A stretch of DNA of 64,000 nt from contig JAHEIW010000004.1 in NCBI GenBank assembly GCA_024639185.1, positions 29,999 to 93,998 of the forward strand. The letters are read 5' to 3'. Position numbers and translations under genes: made by a program. Below, piece after piece: positions 6,555-47,097 of the stretch. The stretch comes from Deltaproteobacteria bacterium (lineage in GTDB: Bacteria; Desulfobacterota; Desulfobacteria; Desulfobacterales; JAHEIW01). How positions within the stretch are numbered: position 1 is the stretch's first letter; each line of letters begins with the position of its first letter. The notes under the pieces were generated by a model. That model was not told the DNA's origin. It saw nothing but the letters and a program-made list of their open reading frames with translations, and did no database searches.

Positions 6555-7637
6555 TTAACGGTATTCTGTCGCTATTTCATCATCGACGCCGAAAAGGTAC
6601 GAAATGAGTGCAGCCCGCATCCACATCCCATTGCGCTCCTGTTTCCAGTAAACAGCGCGCGGGTCTTTATCAACCTCGACGTCTATTTCATAGCGGCGCG
6701 GCAGCGGGTGCATGATGATGCAGTGGGATTGGATGACTGAGAGATGCTCTTTGGTGAAATGAAATTGCGGGTAAACATCGGTTTCTTCCGCCGGGGCTTC
6801 AGCATATTCTTTTTGAATGCGGGTCATGTAGATGGCATCCACATGCTGCATGACACTGGCAAAATCATCCGTTTCGTGAAATTCGATGTTATGTTTATTG
6901 AGAAAGCTTTTTATATCGTCTTTCATGCGAAAGACCTCCGGGGCAACAAAATACAGCGTGACATCTTTATAATTTCGCATCAGATAGCTAAGCGAGCGCA
7001 CCGTGCGGCCGCGTTTTAAATCTCCGACCATGGCAATTTTTTTGCCGTCCATCCCGCCGATATTGCGAAACGAGCGCTCCAGGGTATAGATATCCAGCAG
7101 GGCCTGGGTGGGGTGTTGATCGGGTCCTGAACCCCCGTTGATAATGGCTACCGGCAGTTTGTTTTGATTCAGCAGCCAGGCGGTTTTTTCGGCAAATCCG
7201 GCCTCAGGATGCCGGATAATAATCAAGTTTACGTAACTGGCAAAGGTGCGGATGGTGTCCTCCTGGGATTCGCCTTTAACCTCCGAGCTGGTGGAAGTGC
7301 CGCGAATTTCAGAAATTTTCATCCCCAGGATGTGGCAGGCATTCAGAAAGGATATAAAGGTGCGGGTGGAGGGCTGCACAAAATAAAGCATGGCGCGCTT
7401 GTGTGAAAGCAGGCCGCTTAACTTGCGAGCGCCCATTTTGGTCAAGGCCATGCGACGGATCTGGGTAGCCAGCTGGCACATATTATTCAGGAAATCCCTG
7501 TCAAACTGCTGTGAAAATAATATATCCAGCATGCGCCCTTTACGAATAAAGAAATCGAGCTTTTCACTTTTTTTGATTTTATAAAAGTCTTCCCAGCCTT
7601 TGTAATTTTGGATCGTGACTTCTTTTGGCTCGTCCAT
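6555..7637 (-). CDS. pyrB: Aspartate carbamoyltransferase
   Basis: 360 residues. Catalyses carbamoyl phosphate plus aspartate to carbamoyl aspartate, the committed step of pyrimidine synthesis. Visible hallmarks are PSTRT (carbamoyl phosphate loop), SSEVKGES with the active-site Lys, IIRHP, GSGPDQHPTQALLDIYT, VGDLKRGRTVRSLS, TRIQKE, and HPLPRR near the C-terminus. The loop reads STRTF where most enzymes have STRTR, a mild deviation. About 50 extra N-terminal residues make it longer than the roughly 310-residue E. coli chain. No regulatory chain (pyrI) or other pyr gene is adjacent. Ornithine carbamoyltransferase is excluded by the GSGPDQHPTQALLD loop. Confidence 0.9.
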   Translation of the reverse strand: MDEPKEVTIQNYKGWEDFYKIKKSEKLDFFIRKGRMLDILFSQQFDRDFLNNMCQLATQIRRMALTKMGARKLSGLLSHKRAMLYFVQPSTRTFISFLNACHILGMKISEIRGTSTSSEVKGESQEDTIRTFASYVNLIIIRHPEAGFAEKTAWLLNQNKLPVAIINGGSGPDQHPTQALLDIYTLERSFRNIGGMDGKKIAMVGDLKRGRTVRSLSYLMRNYKDVTLYFVAPEVFRMKDDIKSFLNKHNIEFHETDDFASVMQHVDAIYMTRIQKEYAEAPAEETDVYPQFHFTKEHLSVIQSHCIIMHPLPRRYEIDVEVDKDPRAVYWKQERNGMWMRAALISYLFGVDDEIATEYR

Positions 7638-7909
7638 CGAGCTTGCCCTTTCAGCCCATTAAGTTAACTTTAACTAAAAGAATAAAAGGTTAAATTAAAT
7701 CCGTTTATCATAATGTTGCGCTTAACAATAACAGACCTGGCCCGGACTTTACAACCCCTGGATTTATTATTTAAACGGCAAAATGAATTTATTTTATTGC
7801 TCCTGGAAGCAATTTTATCTATCACTGAAAACTTGCAACGGATCAAAAGCAACGAACACGGATTATGCAGGTACTGTAACCCCTTTAACCCTATCTGCCG
7901 GATCACAGC

Positions 7910-9265
7910 GTGAAGATCGCAGACAACCAGCAAAATGATCATCCTTTTGTAAAGTCACCCCATAAGACCCTGCTATCCATGTCTTTGCCGGTGCTGTTGT
8001 CGCTGGTGGCAGAGCCTATAACGGGTCTGGTGGATACCGCTTTTGTCGCACGCCTGGGCGCTGAATCCCTGGCGGCCCTGGGCGCGGGTACAGTCGCGCT
8101 TTCAAGCATTTTCTGGGCCTTTAATTTCTTAGGTATCGGGACGCAGACCGAAGTGGCCCAGGCTTATGGCCGCAAGGAAATCAAAAGGACCGCTGAAATC
8201 GGCGGTCTGGCAATTGCCCTGAGCGCTGCCATTGGCGCCCTGATGATACTCGGCGGCCTGCCGCTGGTATCTTATATATCCTCTCTCATGGGCGCCGAGT
8301 CCGCAGTCCATGATCTTGCTTCTCAATACATTCAGGTGCGCTTGTTTGGCGCGCCGGCAGTCCTGGTCACCCTGGCGGTCTTTGGTATCCTCAGGGGCTT
8401 GCAGGACATGCGCACACCGCTCTGGGTGGCGGTTAGCATCAATCTGTTAAATATTATTTTAGATCCGTTGCTCATCTTTGGTTACGGACCCTTTCCGCGA
8501 CTGGGCATTTTCGGTGCCGGTCTGGCCAGCGTCTTCAGCCAGTGGCTGGGCGCCGTGTGGGCCACAACGGTGGTTTTGCGCCGACTGGGAATGCCTAAAC
8601 GCTTTCAGATGAGAGATATTTTAAAACTGTTTCAAATCGGACGCGACCTGTTTATCCGCACGGGTTTGCTGACGGCATTTTTTATATTTAGCACCCGGGC
8701 TGCTACCCGCAGCGGTGCGGATGCCGGTGCCGCCCACCAGGCCATACGGCAGGTCTGGGTGTTTACCGCGCTTTTCCTGGATGCCTATGCCATCACCGGG
8801 CAAAGCCTGATTGGTTTTTTTATGGGCCCCGGTCGACTGGAGCAGGCGCGCCGTATCGCCCGGCTGGTTTGCGGTTGGAGCGCTGCCACCGGTGCTGTAT
8901 TAAGTGCGGCCATGTGGCTGGGTCAGGATTTAGTGGTCCGGCTGTTGCTCCCACCGTCGGCGATACCTATTTTCTTTTCGGCCTGGTGGTTGGCAGTGAT
9001 TACACAACCGATCAATGCCCTGGCCTTTGCCACCGACGGCATTCACTGGGGCACCGGTGATTTTGGCTTCCTGCGCAATATTATGATTTCAGCCACTGCC
9101 TTTGGCGGCATTGCGATTTATTTGCTCGATGAAACCGCACCCGGAGCCCTGACCTGGATTTGGTACATCACGGCTGCCTGGATCACCATACGGGCGGTAT
9201 TTGGGGTGGTGCGGATATGGCCGGGAATCGGTCACACGCCGCTCAAAGAGCGGAATGAAGTTTAA
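7910..9265 (+). CDS. MATE-family efflux transporter (DinF-like)
   Basis: 451 residues with twelve predicted membrane segments. The N-terminus carries the MATE signature (LLSMSLPVLLSLVAEPITGLVDTAFVARLG, positions about 22-51). The second half repeats the fold. Family knowledge: exports drugs or metabolites in exchange for Na+ or H+. The start is a GTG at 7910 with no clear ribosome binding site; the ATG near 7979 would cut into the first helix and is less likely. No neighbour suggests the substrate. Confidence 0.85.
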   Translation: MKIADNQQNDHPFVKSPHKTLLSMSLPVLLSLVAEPITGLVDTAFVARLGAESLAALGAGTVALSSIFWAFNFLGIGTQTEVAQAYGRKEIKRTAEIGGLAIALSAAIGALMILGGLPLVSYISSLMGAESAVHDLASQYIQVRLFGAPAVLVTLAVFGILRGLQDMRTPLWVAVSINLLNIILDPLLIFGYGPFPRLGIFGAGLASVFSQWLGAVWATTVVLRRLGMPKRFQMRDILKLFQIGRDLFIRTGLLTAFFIFSTRAATRSGADAGAAHQAIRQVWVFTALFLDAYAITGQSLIGFFMGPGRLEQARRIARLVCGWSAATGAVLSAAMWLGQDLVVRLLLPPSAIPIFFSAWWLAVITQPINALAFATDGIHWGTGDFGFLRNIMISATAFGGIAIYLLDETAPGALTWIWYITAAWITIRAVFGVVRIWPGIGHTPLKERNEV

Positions 9266-9270
9266 ATCTT

Positions 9271-9333
9271 CTCGCAAAGTCGCCAGGGGTTTTTAATGTA
9301 TGATTCTTTGCGACTTAGCGGCTTTGCGTGAGT
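9271..9333. repeat. GCAAAG-type inverted repeat
   Basis: CTCGCAAAGTCGCC on the left pairs with GCGGCTTTGCGTGAG on the right, enclosing another TTTGCGACTTAGC block. The same GCAAAG/CGC vocabulary recurs at 16357-16468. It fills the gap between the MATE and alkyltransferase genes. Confidence 0.5.
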
Positions 9334-9378
9334 CATATCATAAAAATCAACTGGTTCCGAAATTCCAAGGAGGAATTT

Positions 9379-9843
9379 GTGCAAAAATATACGGCCTGTT
9401 ACTGGTCTGAAATTGGTCCTTTTGAAATCGTTGGGACACATAAAGGCCTGTTTACGATCACCTTTAATAAAAACCCATTAGTGACGGATCACAACTTGCC
9501 GGCCAGCATGACCGAATGTCTGCGGCAACTGGAAGAATACTTCAAAGGCCAGCGTCAAAAATTCGATGTGCCGCTCGTGCTGGAAGGAACCGATTTTCAA
9601 AAAGCCGTCTGGCGACAGCTGCAAAAGATTCCCTTTGGCCAGACCGCCTCCTATGGCGATGTGGCCCGCGCCATTGACCGTCCCAGGGCCTATCGAGCCG
9701 TGGGAAATGCCAACAACAAAAACCCGGTGCCCCTGATTATTCCCTGTCATCGCGTGATCGGCAGCGACGGCAAACTGGCCGGATTCGGCGGCGGTATCTG
9801 GCGCAAGCAGTGGTTGCTGGATCATGAAAAAAGTCTGCTTTAA
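9379..9843 (+). CDS. ogt: Methylated-DNA--[protein]-cysteine S-methyltransferase
   Basis: 154 residues from the GTG at 9379, fixed by a perfect AAGGAGG five bases upstream; the open frame from 9328 has no such site and runs through a repeat. Removes alkyl groups from O6-alkylguanine by irreversible transfer to its own cysteine. The active-site motif is PCHRVIGSDGKLAGFGGG. The preceding block (FQKAVWRQLQKIPFGQTASY) and the Arg finger region (RAYRAVGNANNKNP) are intact. It is the single-domain Ogt/MGMT type without an Ada N-terminal domain. The symbol is by similarity. Confidence 0.9.
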   Translation: MQKYTACYWSEIGPFEIVGTHKGLFTITFNKNPLVTDHNLPASMTECLRQLEEYFKGQRQKFDVPLVLEGTDFQKAVWRQLQKIPFGQTASYGDVARAIDRPRAYRAVGNANNKNPVPLIIPCHRVIGSDGKLAGFGGGIWRKQWLLDHEKSLL

Positions 9844-10057
9844 GAGCGTGTATTCGAAAATATTCTATTGCCTGGATCAGGGCAGAGTGTTAAACCCAAA
9901 AGCAGGAGGGCTCCTGGATTCTGTTTGCGTCACCCGATAAATACTGAATTATTCCAAGCCGAATGATGCTTTGGCTGTACCCGTCCTGCGTCTGATATTT
10001 TTGAAAATTATCGGCGGCTCCCGGTCGCAAACCATAAACGCAATTTGCGGGTTACCC

Positions 10058-10732
10058 ATGATTCGACTCACAAATTTGCATAAATCCTACACCATGGGCC
10101 GTAATCAGCTGCATGTATTAAAGGGCATTGATTTGCACGTTGCCGAAGGCGAGCTGGTATCGGTGATGGGATCCTCCGGATCCGGAAAATCCACCTTGCT
10201 AAATGTCATCGGACTGCTCGACACTTACGATTCAGGTCAATACCAGCTGAACAATCAACCCATTCAAAACATGACCGAATCCCGGGCCGCGCAATTGCGC
10301 AACCGATTTTTCGGTTTTGTTTTTCAATCCTTTAATTTAATTCCGTTTAAAAATGCGCAGGAAAACGTGGCGCTGCCGCTTTACTACCAGAAAATGGGCC
10401 GCAAAAAGCGCCTGCGGATGGCCATGGAGTATCTGGATAAAATGGGCATACGCGAGTGGGCCGATCATTTGCCGGGAGAATTATCCGGCGGCCAGCAGCA
10501 GCGATGTGCCATCGCCCGTGCCATGGTCACCAATCCTAAAGTCATTTTAGCCGACGAGCCCACCGGTGCGCTGGACACCGATACATCTTACGAAATGATG
10601 GCATTGATGAAAAACATCAATCAAGAAGGCGTTACCATTATTATTGTTACCCACGAGCATGATATTTCAGACCGCACCGATCGGGTGATCCGGTTAAAAG
10701 ACGGTGTGATTGAAAATCATCAAAAACCCTGA
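10058..10732 (+). CDS. MacB-type ABC transporter ATP-binding protein
   Basis: 224 residues from ATG at 10058 ([14 protein letters not shown]); the open frame extends to 9971 but the extra residues do not fit the family. Walker [14 protein letters not shown]-loop VFQSFNLIP, signature [15 protein letters not shown], Walker [13 protein letters not shown] and switch THEHD are all present. Family knowledge: MacB/LolD-type ATPases power type VII ABC systems, which transmit force rather than move substrates through the membrane. First gene of a four-gene operon, with 11 nt to the next. Confidence 0.9.
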
Positions 10733-10743
10733 GTGCTAAAACG

Positions 10744-11979
10744 ATGCTGCATTTTATTGACCGACTCCAGGAGATTTACAGCACCATTCAGAAAAACAAG
10801 CTGCGAACGGTGTTAACCGGATTCAGCGTCGCCTGGGGCATTTTCATGCTCGTTTTGCTGCTGGGGTCCGGCACCGGTATCGAAAACGGAGTTAAAAACG
10901 AGTTTCGCAATGTGGCCACCAACAGTATCTGGGTTCATCCCGGGCAAACCAGCAAACCGTATAAAGGTCTTCAGCCAGGGCGGCAGATTGAATTTACCAA
11001 TGCGGACTATGATGAGATCAAAGCCAACCTGGATGGGATTGAGCACCTTACGGCACGCTATTATCTGTGGAATACAAACCAGATCACCTACAAACAAGAA
11101 TACGGCGCCTTCAATATCATCGCTTTTCATCCGGATCACAAATTTCTGGAAAATACGATTTTAAGACAAGGCCGGCTGATTAATGAATTGGATATCAGGC
11201 GGACCCGCAAAGTCGCCACCATCGGAACCCTGGTCAAAGAGCAACTGTTTAAGGATGAGCCCGCCGTTGGCAAATTTATCACCATCAATGGTGTGCCCTT
11301 TAAGGTCGTCGGGATTCATTTCGATGACGGCCGTGAAATGCATTTGCGGCTGATTTATCTGCCGGTGTCTACGGCCCAGAAGGTATTTGGCGGCGGCAAT
11401 AAAATCCATGCGTACATGTTTACGGTCGGCACTGCCAGCGTCGAACAGGGCCAGACCATGGAAAAAGCGGTGCGCACCAAAATGGCCCAGCGGCACAACT
11501 TCTCTGCGGATGATCCCAAAGCACTCCGAGTATTTAATACCGTCGAACGTTTTCAGAAATTTGTGAATCTGTTTGGCGGCATTCGTATTTTTATCTGGAT
11601 AATCGGCATCGGGACGATTGTTGCCGGAATCGTCGGCATCAGCAACATCATGCTCATATCCGTTAAAGAACGAACAAGGGAGATTGGCATTCGCAAAGCG
11701 CTGGGTGCGACGCCGGGCTCCATTCTGGGAATGATTTTAACCGAATCGGTGCTGATCACGGCGGTGGCCGGATATATCGGCCTGGTGGCCGGGGTGGCGG
11801 TTGTCGAGCTGGCTGCCGCCTATCTTCCCAAGCTGGATTTGTTTCAGCATCCGGAAGTTGACTTCCGGGTTGCCATAGGAGCGCTGGTGTTGCTGGTGAT
11901 GTCGGGAACGATCGCCGGATTCGTTCCGGCTCGCAGGGCTGCGTCTATACTACCAGTCGAAGCCCTAAGAGATGAGTAA
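10744..11979 (+). CDS. MacB-family ABC transporter permease (first of two)
   Basis: 411 residues: an N-terminal membrane span (LRTVLTGFSVAWGIFMLVLLLG), a periplasmic MacB_PCD domain (about residues 45-260) and three C-terminal FtsX-type spans. The FtsX core reads ISNIMLISVKERTREIGIRKALGATPGSILGMI. It pairs with the upstream ATPase and with a related permease at 12292, so the complex is probably a heterodimer. A long palindromic repeat starts at its stop codon. Confidence 0.9.
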   Translation: MLHFIDRLQEIYSTIQKNKLRTVLTGFSVAWGIFMLVLLLGSGTGIENGVKNEFRNVATNSIWVHPGQTSKPYKGLQPGRQIEFTNADYDEIKANLDGIEHLTARYYLWNTNQITYKQEYGAFNIIAFHPDHKFLENTILRQGRLINELDIRRTRKVATIGTLVKEQLFKDEPAVGKFITINGVPFKVVGIHFDDGREMHLRLIYLPVSTAQKVFGGGNKIHAYMFTVGTASVEQGQTMEKAVRTKMAQRHNFSADDPKALRVFNTVERFQKFVNLFGGIRIFIWIIGIGTIVAGIVGISNIMLISVKERTREIGIRKALGATPGSILGMILTESVLITAVAGYIGLVAGVAVVELAAAYLPKLDLFQHPEVDFRVAIGALVLLVMSGTIAGFVPARRAASILPVEALRDE

Positions 11980-12125
11980 AAACTGGTTTAAAACAGTCAT
12001 GTCTTGCCCGATAGCATTGTTAAAATCCGCTTCAAAATACTCGCGTACTAGCGTGTACGCTCCACTTTTAAAGCGAATTTCGCCTCGCTCTCGAACAAGA
12101 TCTAACAATTTTAATCCAGTTTTAC
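11976..12125. repeat. Long palindromic repeat, member A1
   Basis: About 150 bp with arms of roughly 64 bp (outer ends GTAAAAACTGG / CCAGTTTTAC, inner arms around CGCTTCAAAA / TTTTAAAGCG). They meet at a core of CTCG, GTACTAGC, GTGTAC and GCTCC. The same core occurs at 52073-52096 and 54357-54380. It overlaps the permease stop codon and sits inside the operon. The rest of the gap to 12292 holds a weaker GGCCAAC/GGCTCAAC inverted repeat and no gene. Confidence 0.7.
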
Positions 12126-12291
12126 CCATTTAACAATTAAGGTTTGGCCGATTCTAAAACGATAAAAAGTTGCGCTCGTTGGGCCAGTTGAGCCGGTATA
12201 AAGAGTAATACTAAATGATATTTAGCTACACGGGCCAACGGGCTCAACCGGCAAACGGGCACAAAACATTTTACGTACAGCGGAAAATGAG

Positions 12292-13560
12292 ATGATATTT
12301 GATCGCGATAGCTGGCATGAAATATTCAGCACCCTGAAGAAAAACAAACTGCGATCGTTTATGACGGCATTCGGGGTCTTCTGGGGCATTTTCATGCTGA
12401 TCGTCATGCTGGGCGCCGGAAATGGGCTCCACAACGGCGCCATGAATGAGTTTAACCGCTTGGCCAGCAACAGCGTTTTTGTCTGGACCCGGACAACGAC
12501 TATTCCTTACAAAGGCTTTCCCCGCGGGCGCAAATTCTATTTTAACAATGACGACATCAAAGCCCTGCGGCAGCAAATCCCTATGATCGAACACATCGCG
12601 CCGCGCAATCAACTGGGCGGGCACCGCGGAGTCGCCAATGTAACCCGGGAGCTGAAAGACGGTGCTTTTGCCATTAACGGTGATTACCCGGAAATCATTC
12701 ACATCAAACTGATGGATATTGCAGCCGGACGATTTCTCAATCACCTGGACTTAAATGAAAAACGCAAAGTTGCGGTCATCGGTTCGCGGGTCGTTGAAGT
12801 TTTGTTTGAGCCCGCCGAGGACCCCATCGGGCAGAATATCGAGGTCAAAGGCGTTTATTTTAAGGTCATCGGTGTTTTTAAATCCAAAGGGGAAGGCGAT
12901 GAGGCTGATGAAGACATGCAGACCGTTTTCATACCGTTTACAACCTTCCAGCAGGTATTTAATTACGGCAACCGTGTCAGCTGGTTTTCGCTGACCTCGA
13001 CAAAGGGTGTGGCGGCATCTGAGGTCGAGCGCCGGGCCGTGGCCCTGCTGGCCGAACGGCACCAGGTATCGCCTGACGATGCCCCGGCATTTGGCCGCTA
13101 CAATACCGAAAGAGAATTCAATCAAATGCTAGACCTGTTTAGTGGGATTAATTTTTTAACTTGGTTTGTGGGCATTTTCACCTTAATCGCCGGTGTGATC
13201 GGCGTCAGCAATATTATGCTGATTGTGGTTAAAGAACGCACCAAAGAAATCGGTATTAGGCGGGCCATCGGTGCCACCCCCATTGGGATCGTGGGGCAAA
13301 TCGTGCTCGAATCCATTTTACTGACCACCGTTGCCGGGTATTTTGGCCTGGTAGCGGCGGTGGGTGCGGTTGAATTTGTTGCCAAAGCTTTACAGAAAAG
13401 CGGATCGCGGGCTGAATTTTTTAAAAATCCGGAAGTCGACTTGACCATTGCCGTGATCGCACTGGGTATTCTCATCTTATCCGGGGCGCTGGCAGGCTTG
13501 ATTCCCGGTAAGCGTGCGATTGGGATTAGACCGGTTGAAGCGATTAGAGTAGAACAATAA
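12292..13560 (+). CDS. MacB-family ABC transporter permease (second of two)
   Basis: 422 residues with the same layout as the upstream permease: N-terminal span (LRSFMTAFGVFWGIFMLIVMLG), periplasmic MacB_PCD domain, and an FtsX C-terminus with VSNIMLIVVKERTKEIGIRRAIGATP. It is clearly a diverged duplicate of the first permease. The 312-bp gap before it contains a long palindrome and no alternative gene. Eighteen bases separate it from the adaptor gene. Confidence 0.9.
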   Translation: MIFDRDSWHEIFSTLKKNKLRSFMTAFGVFWGIFMLIVMLGAGNGLHNGAMNEFNRLASNSVFVWTRTTTIPYKGFPRGRKFYFNNDDIKALRQQIPMIEHIAPRNQLGGHRGVANVTRELKDGAFAINGDYPEIIHIKLMDIAAGRFLNHLDLNEKRKVAVIGSRVVEVLFEPAEDPIGQNIEVKGVYFKVIGVFKSKGEGDEADEDMQTVFIPFTTFQQVFNYGNRVSWFSLTSTKGVAASEVERRAVALLAERHQVSPDDAPAFGRYNTEREFNQMLDLFSGINFLTWFVGIFTLIAGVIGVSNIMLIVVKERTKEIGIRRAIGATPIGIVGQIVLESILLTTVAGYFGLVAAVGAVEFVAKALQKSGSRAEFFKNPEVDLTIAVIALGILILSGALAGLIPGKRAIGIRPVEAIRVEQ

Positions 13561-41448: not shown

Positions 41449-41877
41449 ATGAAAGATTCCTTGAAAGCCGGCCTGACGTTTAATTTTCAATACCGGGTTC
41501 CGGAGAACAAAACCGTCCCGTATCTCTACCCTGAAGCACCGGAATTTCAGAAGATGCCTAAAGTTCTGGCGACCGGGTTTATGGTGGGTCTGTTTGAGTG
41601 GACCTGTATCCAGGCCATTAACCCGCATCTAGACTGGCCCGAGGAGCAAACCGTCGGCATCGGGTTGAACCTGAATCACCTGGCAGCCACGCCACCGGGT
41701 TTGACCGTTACGGTAGCGGTGAAACTCAAGGAAGTCGACGGCCGACGGCTGGTTTTTTCGATTGTTGCCGATGACGGTCTCGACAAGATCTCTGAAGGGA
41801 CCCACGAGCGCTTTGTCATCGATGCCGCAAAATTTAACAAGAAGGTCGCCGAAAAAGGTCAAAGGCCGGGCACCTGA
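41449..41877 (+). CDS. Hotdog-fold thioesterase (fluoroacetyl-CoA thioesterase-like)
   Basis: 142 residues, complete hotdog fold. YLYPEAPEFQKMPKVLATGFMVGLFEW carries the Thr and Glu, and GLNLNHLAATPPGLTVTV the His, that form the FlK-type active site (Thr/Glu/His). It hydrolyses an acyl-CoA; the natural substrate is unknown. It converges with the FadR-type regulator 14 bp away and may or may not belong to that locus. Confidence 0.78.
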   Translation: MKDSLKAGLTFNFQYRVPENKTVPYLYPEAPEFQKMPKVLATGFMVGLFEWTCIQAINPHLDWPEEQTVGIGLNLNHLAATPPGLTVTVAVKLKEVDGRRLVFSIVADDGLDKISEGTHERFVIDAAKFNKKVAEKGQRPGT

Positions 41878-41891
41878 GACCTGGCGCTTTT

Positions 41892-42665
41892 TTAGGACAG
41901 GGGTAGTGTTCTTTTGTAGGCAAAAGGAAACAGGCCTTCTTCACTCAATTTTTCTATTTTCTGAATCGAGTCTTCCAGGTGTTGAATCATTATGGCCTTG
42001 GCCTTAAGGGCATTTTTTTCTTCGATGGCCTGAACCAGCTGTTCGTGTTGTGAGACCACCAGGTCGAACCAGTCATCAATCGTCATGAAGACCTCGTTGC
42101 TCAGATTGGTGTTTCTTTCAATCAGCGACGCCAGACCTTCGTTGACACGCTCCATGATTTTGTTATGCGTGGCGGAAATATACAGATTGTGAAGCATGAT
42201 CTCCCAGTATGAACGCTCCTTTTTTTTATCTTCGGCTTCACCGTTGCCGGACTTCAGCTTTTCAATACAGGCTCTCATTTTCATCAAATCTTCATCCGTA
42301 CGACGGTGGGCTGCCAATTCCGCTGCTGATACGTTCAAAATCCAGCGCATTTCCATAACCTGCGGCAGGAGATCTTCGAGCCAGAAAGGCATAAACTGCA
42401 TGCTATCGGTGAAGTCGCTCAGAAATGGCGTTTGCACGAATATGCCCTGGCGTTCCACCGATTCAAGAACCCCCCAGGCTTCCAGGGTAATAATGGCTTC
42501 ACGCAGCAATGAGCGGCTGACGCCTAACATTTCCGCAAGATCCCGTTCGGCGGGAAGCTTGCTGCCTTTGGTGTACATCTTGGTTTTGATGAGCTCTTTA
42601 AGTTGGGCGATAACCTCGTCTCTTTTCTTTTTCAACGATTTTTCCTCGGCGCTTTTTTTGGTCAA
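41892..42665 (-). CDS. GntR-family (FadR subfamily) transcriptional regulator
   Basis: 257 residues. N-terminal winged helix (TKGSKLPAERDLAEMLGVSRSLLREAIITLEAWGVLESV) and C-terminal FCD helical domain (Asp/His metal or acid-binding positions in LHNLYISATHN and VVSQHEQLVQAIEE). FadR-type regulators bind TNGTNNNACNA. Exactly such a site, TGGTAGGACCA, lies in the divergent gap before the glycyl radical enzyme gene. Probably represses that operon until its inducer (a small acid) binds. Confidence 0.9.
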   Translation of the reverse strand: MTKKSAEEKSLKKKRDEVIAQLKELIKTKMYTKGSKLPAERDLAEMLGVSRSLLREAIITLEAWGVLESVERQGIFVQTPFLSDFTDSMQFMPFWLEDLLPQVMEMRWILNVSAAELAAHRRTDEDLMKMRACIEKLKSGNGEAEDKKKERSYWEIMLHNLYISATHNKIMERVNEGLASLIERNTNLSNEVFMTIDDWFDLVVSQHEQLVQAIEEKNALKAKAIMIQHLEDSIQKIEKLSEEGLFPFAYKRTLPLS

Positions 42666-42808
42666 CCAGTGGTTTGAAATAGCATCATTTTCGGGCTTGC
42701 CAATAGTATTGCTTTATTTACAGGTGAGAAATTGGATGATTTGACCGTTATTAGATAATAGGTCTTTATTTTAATATCTTAATAATATTTTCAATGTCAA
42801 GACAGGCG

Positions 42809-42871
42809 AAAATCTACCCATTTAATATTGACAAAACAGCGCAGATTGGGTAGATTTTTTTGGTAGGACCA
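42809..42871 (+). promoter_or_regulatory. Promoter and FadR-type operator of the glycyl radical enzyme operon
   Basis: TTGACA (42828-42833), 17-bp spacer, TAGATT (42851-42856). TGGTAGGACCA (42861-42871) matches TNGTNNNACNA over the start point. A perfect 12-bp inverted repeat, AAAATCTACCCA (42809-42820) and TGGGTAGATTTT (42847-42858), brackets the -35 and overlaps the -10. Confidence 0.72.
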
Positions 42872-42985
42872 CAGGTCAACCAAAGACGCCTTTTTTTAGC
42901 CCCAGAACCGCCATTGTTGCGCTTTAACGGTTGATCCGAAGATCAAAACAGGTTTTGATGATTTTCACCAGGGAGGGTTTAGCAT

Positions 42986-45382
42986 ATGTCGGACAACATA
43001 AAAGTGGCCCAAAACAATCCGCAATTGACCAGCGAGCGGGTCGCCCGTTTGCGCGCACGCCTGGTCGAAGCTCGCCCGCAGGTTTTTGCCGAAAGGGCGC
43101 TGCTGGTGACCGCAGCGTATCAAAATGCCGAAAACGACCCACCGACAATTTACCGCGCCAAAGCCCTGGATCGAATCCTGCGCAAAAGCGCGATCAGCAT
43201 AAAGGCCGATGAATTGATCGTGGGCTGCAAGGTTCCCGTGGCCAAAGGATCCCCGGTTTATCCTGAATTCAATGTGAAATGGCTTGAAGATGAGCTGGAC
43301 ACCCTGGCCGGCAGGGAAGAAACATCTTTTGACATTGACGCCGAAACGAAAATGGCCCTAAAAGAGCGGGTTATCCCCTATTGGAAAGGGCGAACCGTTT
43401 ATGACCGCATTTTAGAAAAGGCACCGGAGAAGGCATTGGCGGCCGAAGAAGAGGGTCTTTTATTTCATTATTACATCGATCGCAGCATCGGCCATATCTC
43501 GGTTAATTATGAAAAAGTACTCCAACTGGGGTTTTGCGGAATCAAGGCCGAAATTGCCGCCCGGCAGGCGCGGTTGGCTGAAACCCAGGCCGATTTTTCA
43601 CAAAAAAGCGCCTTTTATGATGCCCTCATAATAGTCGCCGACGCGGCGATCGCTTTTTCGCATCGATATGCAGAGTTGGCTTCCGATCTGGCGGCCGACT
43701 GCGCAGATCCGGTTCGCCGCGGGGAGCTGGAGAACATTGCTCTCATTTGCCGGCGTGTGCCGCAACACGGAGCTGAAACCTTGCACGAGGCGCTGCAGTC
43801 CTTCTGGTTTGTCCATCTCATCTTGAATCTTGAAAGCAATTCTTACGCCATTTCCCCCGGCCGCTTTTGCCAGTATGTCTACCCGTTTTATCAGGCCGAC
43901 CTCGAAAGCGGAAAAACCGATGAAGCCGGAGCGCAGGAATTGATCAATTGCCTGTGGATCAAATTTAACGAAATGACAGTGGCCAAAGCCGGTGCTTCCG
44001 CCAAAGCCAGCAACACCTATGTTGATTTTCAAAACCTGAATATCGGCGGCCTCGGGGCCGATGGCCGCGACGGCACCAATGACATCTCTTATTTTTGCCT
44101 TAACGCCCTTGATGCCCTGGCGCTCCCCCAGCCCCAGCTATCGTGTCTGGTCAGTTCCAAAACCGATAAGGATTTTATGATGCGGGCCTGTGAGGTTGTG
44201 CGCAACGGAACCGGCATGCCCGCCATGTTCAATGATGATGTCAAAGTCATCAGTTTGTTATCCAGCGGCAAAACACTGCTGGATGCCCGCAATGGCGGTG
44301 TTAACGGATGTGTCGAGGTCAATGCCCAGGGGTGCGACAACATGGCCTCCACCGGATATGTGAATTTACCCAAATGCCTCGAGCTGGCGCTCAACAACGG
44401 CGTCAGTATGACCAGTGGCAAACAGCTGGGACCGCGGACGGGTAATATCACCGGTTTCAACGCCTTTGAAGATGTGTGGCAGGCCTTTGGCCAACAGCTT
44501 AAAGCGGCGGTGGCCCTGAAGGTCTCCTATGATACGGCCGCCCTAAAAGCCTTTGCCAAACACTGCCCCGTCGTCTTTACATCCCTGGTGATGGACGATT
44601 GCATTGAAAAGGGAAAAGATTTTCATCAGGGCGGCGCGCGCTACAATGCGCCCATGATGTGCGGTGTGGGGCTGGGCACCTTGACGGACTCGCTGGCGGC
44701 CATCCGACAATTTTGTTTTTCGACCGGACAATACACTCTTGCGCAAATTCATGCAGCCCTGTCAGACGATTTTTCGTCCCAGCCACTTTTACAGAAGCAA
44801 CTCTGGAAAAATGGCCCGAAATTCGGCAACAACCATAAACACGTCGACCGGCTGGCAGCCAATAGCGTGAATCTGTTCAGTGACATCCTCGGCGGCCATC
44901 TGAATGCTCACGGCGAAGCGTATCGTGCCAACATGATCCCCACGACAACCCACATTCCCATGGGGCATGCCACGGCGGCGACTCCCGACGGTCGTTTTGC
45001 CGGTGCGCCCCTGTCTGAAGGCGTATCTCCCGTCCAGGGGCAGGATATGTCCGGGCCCACCGGCGTGATTCTATCACTGGTCAAGGTCGACCATGCCCGC
45101 ACGGCGGGCACCCTGCTGAACATGAAATTTACACCGCAAATTTTAGCCTGCCGGGAGCAATTGGAGAAATTTTCCGAACTGATACGGACCTATTTCGACC
45201 TCGGGGGCTACCACATGCAGTTCAACGTGGTTTCCAAAGAAACGCTGCTGGCCGCTCAGAAAGACCCCCGGTCGTATCGTTCTTTGATTGTAAGGGTCGC
45301 CGGCTACAGTGACTATTTTGTTTCGCTGAGCAAAGATTTGCAGGATGAAATCATCATGCGTACCGCCCACGGGGTCGAGTGA
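42986..45382 (+). CDS. Glycyl radical enzyme (dehydratase/HypD-like subgroup, substrate unknown)
   Basis: 798 residues. The PFL-like N-domain is followed by the active-site Cys442/Glu444 in NGGVNGCVEVNAQGCDNM and the radical Gly773 in IVRVAGYSDYF, 25 residues from the C-terminus. Regions such as DDCIEKGKDFHQGGARYN and GHATAATPDGRFAGAPLSEG place it among dehydratase/lyase GREs. By memory the closest look is 4-hydroxyproline dehydratase, but the loop after the Cys (VNAQGCDNMAST) differs. It performs radical chemistry without oxygen after activation by the next gene. The operon also encodes an SDR, suggesting a carbonyl intermediate. Confidence 0.93.
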   Translation: MSDNIKVAQNNPQLTSERVARLRARLVEARPQVFAERALLVTAAYQNAENDPPTIYRAKALDRILRKSAISIKADELIVGCKVPVAKGSPVYPEFNVKWLEDELDTLAGREETSFDIDAETKMALKERVIPYWKGRTVYDRILEKAPEKALAAEEEGLLFHYYIDRSIGHISVNYEKVLQLGFCGIKAEIAARQARLAETQADFSQKSAFYDALIIVADAAIAFSHRYAELASDLAADCADPVRRGELENIALICRRVPQHGAETLHEALQSFWFVHLILNLESNSYAISPGRFCQYVYPFYQADLESGKTDEAGAQELINCLWIKFNEMTVAKAGASAKASNTYVDFQNLNIGGLGADGRDGTNDISYFCLNALDALALPQPQLSCLVSSKTDKDFMMRACEVVRNGTGMPAMFNDDVKVISLLSSGKTLLDARNGGVNGCVEVNAQGCDNMASTGYVNLPKCLELALNNGVSMTSGKQLGPRTGNITGFNAFEDVWQAFGQQLKAAVALKVSYDTAALKAFAKHCPVVFTSLVMDDCIEKGKDFHQGGARYNAPMMCGVGLGTLTDSLAAIRQFCFSTGQYTLAQIHAALSDDFSSQPLLQKQLWKNGPKFGNNHKHVDRLAANSVNLFSDILGGHLNAHGEAYRANMIPTTTHIPMGHATAATPDGRFAGAPLSEGVSPVQGQDMSGPTGVILSLVKVDHARTAGTLLNMKFTPQILACREQLEKFSELIRTYFDLGGYHMQFNVVSKETLLAAQKDPRSYRSLIVRVAGYSDYFVSLSKDLQDEIIMRTAHGVE

Positions 45383-46320
45383 TGCTGCAAACCGATACAG
45401 CCCTGGTATTTGATATCAAGCATTATGCCATTCATGACGGACCGGGTATCCGGACCACCGTTTTCATGAAAGGTTGCCCCTTAAGATGCCGGTGGTGCGC
45501 CAATCCCGAATCACAAAATGCCCACCCGGAAGTGCTGTACAACCGGGATCATTGCACCCTGTGCCGCGAATGCGAGCAGGCCTGTCCGAATGCCGCCGTT
45601 GAATTTGAGTCCGGCCGGCGCCGGCACTATCCGGAGCGCTGCACCGGATGCGGCCTCTGTGCCCGGGTCTGCCTGTCCGATGCGGTCGTACTGTGCGGTT
45701 ATACGATTGATGTCAAAACGCTCTGGCAGCAGATCAAAGCGGATCGTGCCTTCTGGGACCGCTCCAGCGGCGGCGTCACCCTCTCCGGCGGTGAGCCCTT
45801 GCTCCAACGGGAGTTTGCCCGGGCGTTTCTTTCCCATTGCCAGAGCCGCCGGGTCCATACGGCGATTGAAACCTGCGGTCATGCGGCTGAAGCGCATTTC
45901 GATGCCATGCTTTCGCATGTGGACCTGGTCATCTTTGATTTTAAAATGGAAGACACCGCTGCCCATGCGCGGTACACGGCCGTATCGAACCATCGGATCA
46001 AAACCAATTTATTAAACCTGTTAAAAAGCAACAAAGATGTTCTGGTGCGCTGGCCGCTGATACCCGGTTACAATGATTCTCCGGGCATGATCAAAAAAAC
46101 CGGTGCGTTTCTGGCAAAAGCTCGTACGGGGCTCCCGGTTGAAGTTTTGCCCTATCATGGCCTGGGAGCGAATAAATACGCGCACCTGGGTCGGCCCTAT
46201 GCACTTTCAGAAGTTAAAACGCCCGACGACCTTCAACTGAAAGCGGTGGCCGATTCTCTGCGCGGATTTGATCTGGATCTCAAGCTGGCTTACAGCCAGC
46301 AAACCGAAAAACGGATCTAA
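45382..46320 (+). CDS. Glycyl radical enzyme activase (radical SAM, with ferredoxin domain)
   Basis: 312 residues; the ATG at 45382 overlaps the GRE stop by one base (a GTG lies one codon earlier). The radical-SAM cluster motif is CPLRCRWC (CxxxCxxC). An inserted ferredoxin domain holds CTLCRECEQACP and CTGCGLCARVC for two 4Fe-4S clusters. SAM-binding SSGGVTLSGGEPLLQ follows. The enzyme installs the Gly773 radical on its partner. Translational coupling fits the stoichiometric need for a matched activase. Confidence 0.95.
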   Translation: MLQTDTALVFDIKHYAIHDGPGIRTTVFMKGCPLRCRWCANPESQNAHPEVLYNRDHCTLCRECEQACPNAAVEFESGRRRHYPERCTGCGLCARVCLSDAVVLCGYTIDVKTLWQQIKADRAFWDRSSGGVTLSGGEPLLQREFARAFLSHCQSRRVHTAIETCGHAAEAHFDAMLSHVDLVIFDFKMEDTAAHARYTAVSNHRIKTNLLNLLKSNKDVLVRWPLIPGYNDSPGMIKKTGAFLAKARTGLPVEVLPYHGLGANKYAHLGRPYALSEVKTPDDLQLKAVADSLRGFDLDLKLAYSQQTEKRI

Positions 46321-46356: not shown

Positions 46357-47097
46357 ATGCCTTTAAAAGATAAGACAGCCCTGGTAACCGGTGCCAGAGT
46401 CGGTATCGGCAGGGCCATTGCCGTGCATCTGGCCGATCAGGGTGCCAATATCATCGCCTGTTCACGAACACTTTCGCCGGATGACACCGTTATTGCAGAG
46501 TGCGCCTCCAAAGGATCAAAGGCCCTGGCGGTGGCAGCCGATGTCGCTGCGCTGCAGGATTGCGTGCAAGTCGTAAAAAAAGGGATAGATCGTTTCGGGC
46601 GAATTGATATCCTGGTCAATAATGCCGGCATATATCCTTCAGCACCTTTGCTGGAAATAGACGAGCAGACCTGGGACCGGGTTTTTGCCGTCAATCTTAA
46701 GGGGACCCTGTTTGCCGCCCAGAGCGTGGCCAAACTGGCAATGATTCCTCAAAAAAGCGGTAGAATTATCAATATCAGCTCCTGCGATGGCCGACGGCCG
46801 ACAGCCGGAATCGCCCATTATGCTGCATCCAAGGCCGGTGTTATCAGTCTGACCAAATCGATGGCCCTGGAGCTGGCGCCCCATAACATCACCGCCAATG
46901 CGGTTGCGCCGGGCTGGGTGGAAACCGAAGCCATACTGAAGTCCGATCGCTGGAAAACGGCTGTTGAGGAAATTCCGCTGGGCAGGCTTGCCCGGCCGGA
47001 AGAGATCGCCGGGATGGTCGCCTTTCTAGCAGACGGCAGTGCCGGGTATATTACCGGCGCGACGTTTGATATCAACGGCGGCCTCATTATGGATTAG
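46357..47097 (+). CDS. Short-chain dehydrogenase/reductase
   Basis: 246 residues. NAD(P) motif TGARVGIGRA, NNAGIYPS, catalytic Ser in INISSCDG, Tyr-Lys in YAASK, and a C-terminus GATFDINGGLIMD as in FabG-like enzymes. Reduces a ketone/aldehyde or oxidises an alcohol. In the GRE operon it most likely processes the product of the radical reaction or prepares the substrate (inference). GGGGGG-type site upstream of the ATG. Confidence 0.9.
   Translation: MPLKDKTALVTGARVGIGRAIAVHLADQGANIIACSRTLSPDDTVIAECASKGSKALAVAADVAALQDCVQVVKKGIDRFGRIDILVNNAGIYPSAPLLEIDEQTWDRVFAVNLKGTLFAAQSVAKLAMIPQKSGRIINISSCDGRRPTAGIAHYAASKAGVISLTKSMALELAPHNITANAVAPGWVETEAILKSDRWKTAVEEIPLGRLARPEEIAGMVAFLADGSAGYITGATFDINGGLIMD

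Follow-up and report, generated by a model that had tools for sequence, protein, structure and literature searches.

Predicted operators of a FadR-subfamily regulator, with two half-site spacings, at the promoter of a glycyl radical enzyme gene

Which of two repeats at the promoter of a glycyl radical enzyme gene is its operator, and which protein would read it? The original prediction had described three elements in this intergenic region, a TTGACA-17-TAGATT promoter, a match to TNGTNNNACNA at its start point and a perfect 12-bp inverted repeat overlapping the -10 box, and had suggested that the operator might be one repeat or the other, or that two factors act, for example a FadR-type regulator and a redox regulator. 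All three elements are present where it had placed them in the window (the whole 64,000-nt stretch analysed here); it had missed an abutting second site (operator B), a regulator-side site and an opposed minus-strand -35 box. Our comparison covered five orthologous loci, of which three are close: the window (G000); the congener G002, with the regulator 94% and the enzyme 92% identical; G154 (80% and 71%; the intergenic sequence is taken from contig L032); G184 (contig L082, 416-1960 and 2367-3119), where a 67% identical regulator lies opposite an aldehyde dehydrogenase gene; and G365 (contig L083), with a 38% identical regulator and a divergent enzyme at 54%. G184 appears to be a case of target exchange under one regulator with the operator retained. 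The features of the window are as follows.

41892-42635, minus strand: gene of a FadR-subfamily regulator with GntR and FCD domains (PF00392, 71.8 bits; PF07729, 63.5 bits)
42657-42673: predicted regulator-side operator TTTGGTCAACCAGTGGT, core TGGTCAACCA at 42659-42668, 2-nt spacing
42778-42773, minus strand: candidate -10 box of the regulator promoter, GATATT
42795-42800, minus strand: -35 box of the divergent regulator promoter, TTGACA (a minus-strand TTGACA also in G002 and G154)
42809-42820: left arm of the inverted repeat, AAAATCTACCCA, unconserved
42828-42833, plus strand: -35 box of the enzyme promoter, TTGACA (in G002, G154 and G184 the box likewise precedes the operator by 32-33 nt)
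42847-42858: right arm of the inverted repeat, TGGGTAGATTTT, containing the -10 box; G002 retains it only as -10 sequence
42851-42856, plus strand: -10 box of the enzyme promoter, TAGATT, after a 17-nt spacer (6/6 identical in G002)
42861-42871, plus strand: predicted operator A, TGGTAGGACCA, with 3-nt spacing, spanning the expected start of transcription and 4 nt past the -10 box
42873-42882, plus strand: predicted operator B, AGGTCAACCA, 2-nt spacing, abutting operator A
42986-45382, plus strand: glycyl radical enzyme, 798 aa, PFL2/glycerol dehydratase type (PF02901, PF01228)
45379-46320, plus strand: activase of the glycyl radical enzyme, a radical SAM protein carrying 4Fe-4S domains (TIGR02494 at 331 bits, exceeding the cut-off; PF04055, PF00037)
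46357-47097, plus strand: short-chain dehydrogenase (PF00106, PF13561), gene order the same in G002

The enzyme combines PFL-like and glycine radical domains with a cysteine in GCVE, a glycine in RVAGYSDYF and a dedicated activase, as expected of the PFL2/glycerol dehydratase type, and it scores 702.8 bits against the TIGR01774 cut-off of 678.2; the specific NCBIfam equivalogs all fall below their cut-offs. Its best-scoring model is HypD (trans-4-hydroxy-L-proline dehydratase), an assignment that we rejected because the enzyme reaches 776.6 bits against a cut-off of 1100 (NF043068) and the activase 310.1 against 425. The group to which the enzyme belongs carries NGCVE(V/I)(N/T)xQG around the catalytic cysteine, with relatives at 71% identity in L032, 58% in L033 and 54% in L083. 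The short-chain dehydrogenase is probably in one operon with the enzyme and activase; such a gene lies near the enzyme gene in the window, in G002 and in L033. On L083, positions 7308-13036 hold a tandem of two distinct genes for glycyl radical enzymes, with an activase gene after the second only. L033 was set aside for the operator comparison, being uninformative without a divergent regulator. Enzyme and regulator queries of phylum-wide genome samples gave no further orthologs, a plasmid search returned distant FCD regulators only, and a search of the literature for Desulfo- species in which a GntR regulator controls glycyl radical enzymes found nothing.

The divergently encoded regulator has the domain arrangement that defines the FadR subfamily, an N-terminal GntR winged helix and a C-terminal FCD domain, both above the Pfam gathering scores. 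Its nearest NCBIfam models are LldR and PdhR, whose operators belong to the 3-nt class (GT and AC separated by 3 nt, like those of operator A); it is neither, since it scores 120.5 bits against a cut-off of 311 and 89.4 against 330, and the target genes differ too. The arginines of its helix-turn-helix, in PxER, (V/I)SR and LLR, are invariant in all five orthologs and are the counterparts of arginines that contact the operator in FadR (PMC4494728). Translation probably starts at the TTG at 42635, which is preceded by GAGG, the listed TTG at 42665 lying 30 nt too far upstream: in G002 two in-frame TAA codons precede the matching GAGG-preceded TTG. This start would place the regulator-side operator in the leader, outside the coding sequence. 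A gene for a small FlK-family (fluoroacetyl-CoA thioesterase) protein adjoins the regulator gene (41449-41877), in G002 as well.

The sequence TGGTAGGACCA at 42861-42871 is a predicted FadR-subfamily (GntR/FCD) operator. It is a palindrome with GT and AC 3 nt apart, the TNGTNNNACNA pattern of the subfamily, and the transcription start of the enzyme promoter, expected at about 42863 given that the -10 box ends at 42856, falls inside it. Aligning the window with G002 and G154 shows all 11 positions of operator A to be identical in both, in a leader that otherwise matches the window at 48/78 positions in G002 and 19/78 in G154. Its position is kept as well: from TTGACA to the first base of TGGTNNNACCA there are 33 nt in the window, 33 in G002, 32 in G154 and 32 in G184, the exception among the five loci being G365 with 51 nt. 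In G184, TGGTATTACCA stands 32 nt downstream of TTGACA and faces the aldehyde dehydrogenase gene rather than a radical enzyme gene, and in G365 a perfect CTTGGTAAGACCAAG occurs in two copies upstream of the divergent enzyme. A TGGTNNNACCA-type site thus recurs with the 67% identical regulator, which has another target, and with the 38% identical one, so that the motif follows the regulator. We regard G184 as the most telling locus, the target gene there being different and the predicted operator unchanged in sequence and place. The FadR-type motif of the original prediction is therefore kept in all the orthologous loci found.

The sites with 2-nt spacing tie the two genes together. A repeat search matched TTTGGTCAACCAGTGGT at 42657-42673 with the approximate reverse complement of ACCACAGGTCAACCAAA at 42868-42884, a 17-nt pair that connects the enzyme promoter with the 5' end of the regulator gene. 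The regulator-side member is identical at 17/17 positions in G002 and at 12/17 in G154, which has TGGTCGACCA there, and the TGGTCRACCA core is kept; operator B, which in the window has no leading T, is identical at 9/10 positions in G154 and 7/10 in G002 in the three-locus alignment. Pattern searches of the whole 5.1-Mb genome found zero-mismatch matches to the consensus of the 17-nt pair at only these two places, and one other match to TTGGTANGACCA, which sits inside a 536-aa ORF and thus does not point to a further target. Across 390 genomes of the order the exact A+B pattern has three matches, all at the orthologous divergons, a count that speaks to specificity and not to independence because the pattern was derived from those same three loci; weak matches were checked by tblastn, and only the three exact ones lie at regulator orthologs. 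Relative to the predicted transcription start of the regulator gene, the regulator-side site lies some 100 nt downstream, a position in which it could work only as a road-block.

We infer from this layout that the regulator would bind these sites, repress by binding, limit its own expression and respond to a ligand. A divergent promoter pair blocked by an autoregulated FadR-type repressor, the product of 41892-42635, and released by a ligand is in our judgement the likely form of control. When inducer is absent, a dimer would occupy operator A, perhaps together with the abutting operator B, across the enzyme start point and exclude RNA polymerase; the regulator would also sit on TGGTCAACCA in its own leader and restrict its own synthesis. 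A small molecule bound by the FCD domain, probably the substrate or product of the glycyl radical enzyme pathway, would release it, and the enzyme, activase and dehydrogenase would then be switched on together. As a rule, a site at +1 obstructs polymerase. Operator A covers the transcription start of a promoter that has a consensus -35 box and a 17-nt spacer, which makes it unlikely that the FadR-type regulator is an activator rather than a repressor of the enzyme promoter, even though some GntR-family regulators do activate certain targets (GntR1/2 on ptsG, PMC2230225). The layout also resembles the double-site divergons described for the subfamily (Suvorova et al., 2015, PMC4494728), where, as here, a GntR/FCD regulator gene is divergent from its target operon and palindromic TKGT/ACMA sites lie one near each gene, with additional half-sites next to the main one. 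Among such divergons a separate site near each gene is the commoner arrangement (71/100; PMC4494728).

The 12-bp inverted repeat is statistically striking yet devoid of conservation. Its arms, 26 nt apart, are complementary at 12/12 positions, and only 1 of 3000 shuffles of the intergenic region produced a perfect repeat of 12 bp or more whose arms were no further than 40 nt apart. The right arm covers the -10 box and the left arm lies between both -35 boxes, as might befit a second operator through which another factor, such as a redox regulator, clamps the -10/-35 region. Shuffling overstates the rarity, since six repeats of this kind occur in the 64-kb window against 0.1 in shuffled sequence; real DNA is rich in such repeats for unrelated reasons. 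Conservation also fails in every orthologous locus examined, the congener included: in G002, whose enzyme is 92% identical, pairing drops to 7/12 with one right-arm change uncompensated, in G154 and G184 the repeat is absent, and in the three-locus alignment the left arm is kept no better than the surrounding sequence. An operator for a redox regulator should recur in orthologous promoters or elsewhere in the genome, and this repeat does neither; a search of the 5.1-Mb genome found its arm at no other place, which argues against a regulon. A second operator is accordingly very unlikely, and we consider the repeat most likely not part of the predicted control switch; nothing supports a role confined to the lineage, judged on the one congener. 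Conservation upstream of orthologous genes, the check proposed with the original prediction, thus upholds the FadR-type motif and turns against the inverted repeat, leaving the FadR-type regulator standing and the redox factor unsupported. A role as an RNA hairpin was dropped because no transcript would carry both arms: the left one precedes the enzyme -35 box, and the entire repeat lies upstream of the regulator promoter. An Rfam scan of 42500-43050 gave no RNA element. Shortly upstream of the enzyme RBS there is a perfect 8-bp inverted repeat, ATCAAAAC-AG-GTTTTGAT (42942-42959), unconserved in G002, where the stretch is partly missing; such repeats come and go.

That TGGTAGGACCA is itself a chance match to a loose consensus is hardly credible: shuffling the intergenic region yields TNGTNNNACNA alone in about 6% of cases (the stricter TGGTNNNACCA in 0.4%), but three genomes share an identical TGGTAGGACCA, two others have related sites, and in four of the five loci the distance from TTGACA is fixed.

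Repression by a FadR-type regulator, as proposed above, would be ordinary in kind; the sole unusual feature is the mixed spacing, 3 nt in operator A and 2 nt in operator B and the regulator-side site, within one intergenic region, and it is worth a specialist's look. In the FadR subfamily the GT-AC distance is assigned by orthologous group, 3 nt in most groups and 2 nt in several others (PMC4494728), whereas here both occur in the intergenic region of one regulator. As a control, we took 28 further FCD regulators from the order and searched upstream of them, finding TGGTN3ACCA at nine and TGGTN2ACCA at none, indicating that the 3-nt site is what such regulators use and that the 2-nt sites are a feature of the small group formed by the window, G002 and G154. 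It is possible, though we advance it tentatively, that a single FadR-subfamily regulator reads TGGTNNNACCA with 3-nt spacing at the enzyme promoter and TGGTCRACCA with 2-nt spacing beside it and at its own gene, the spacing setting a different affinity at the two promoters. Two half-site spacings under one regulator would, if real, usefully illustrate how dimers of the FadR type adapt. For this group of glycyl radical enzymes, which has no curated specific family, a conserved predicted operator makes the inducer, and hence the substrate, testable.
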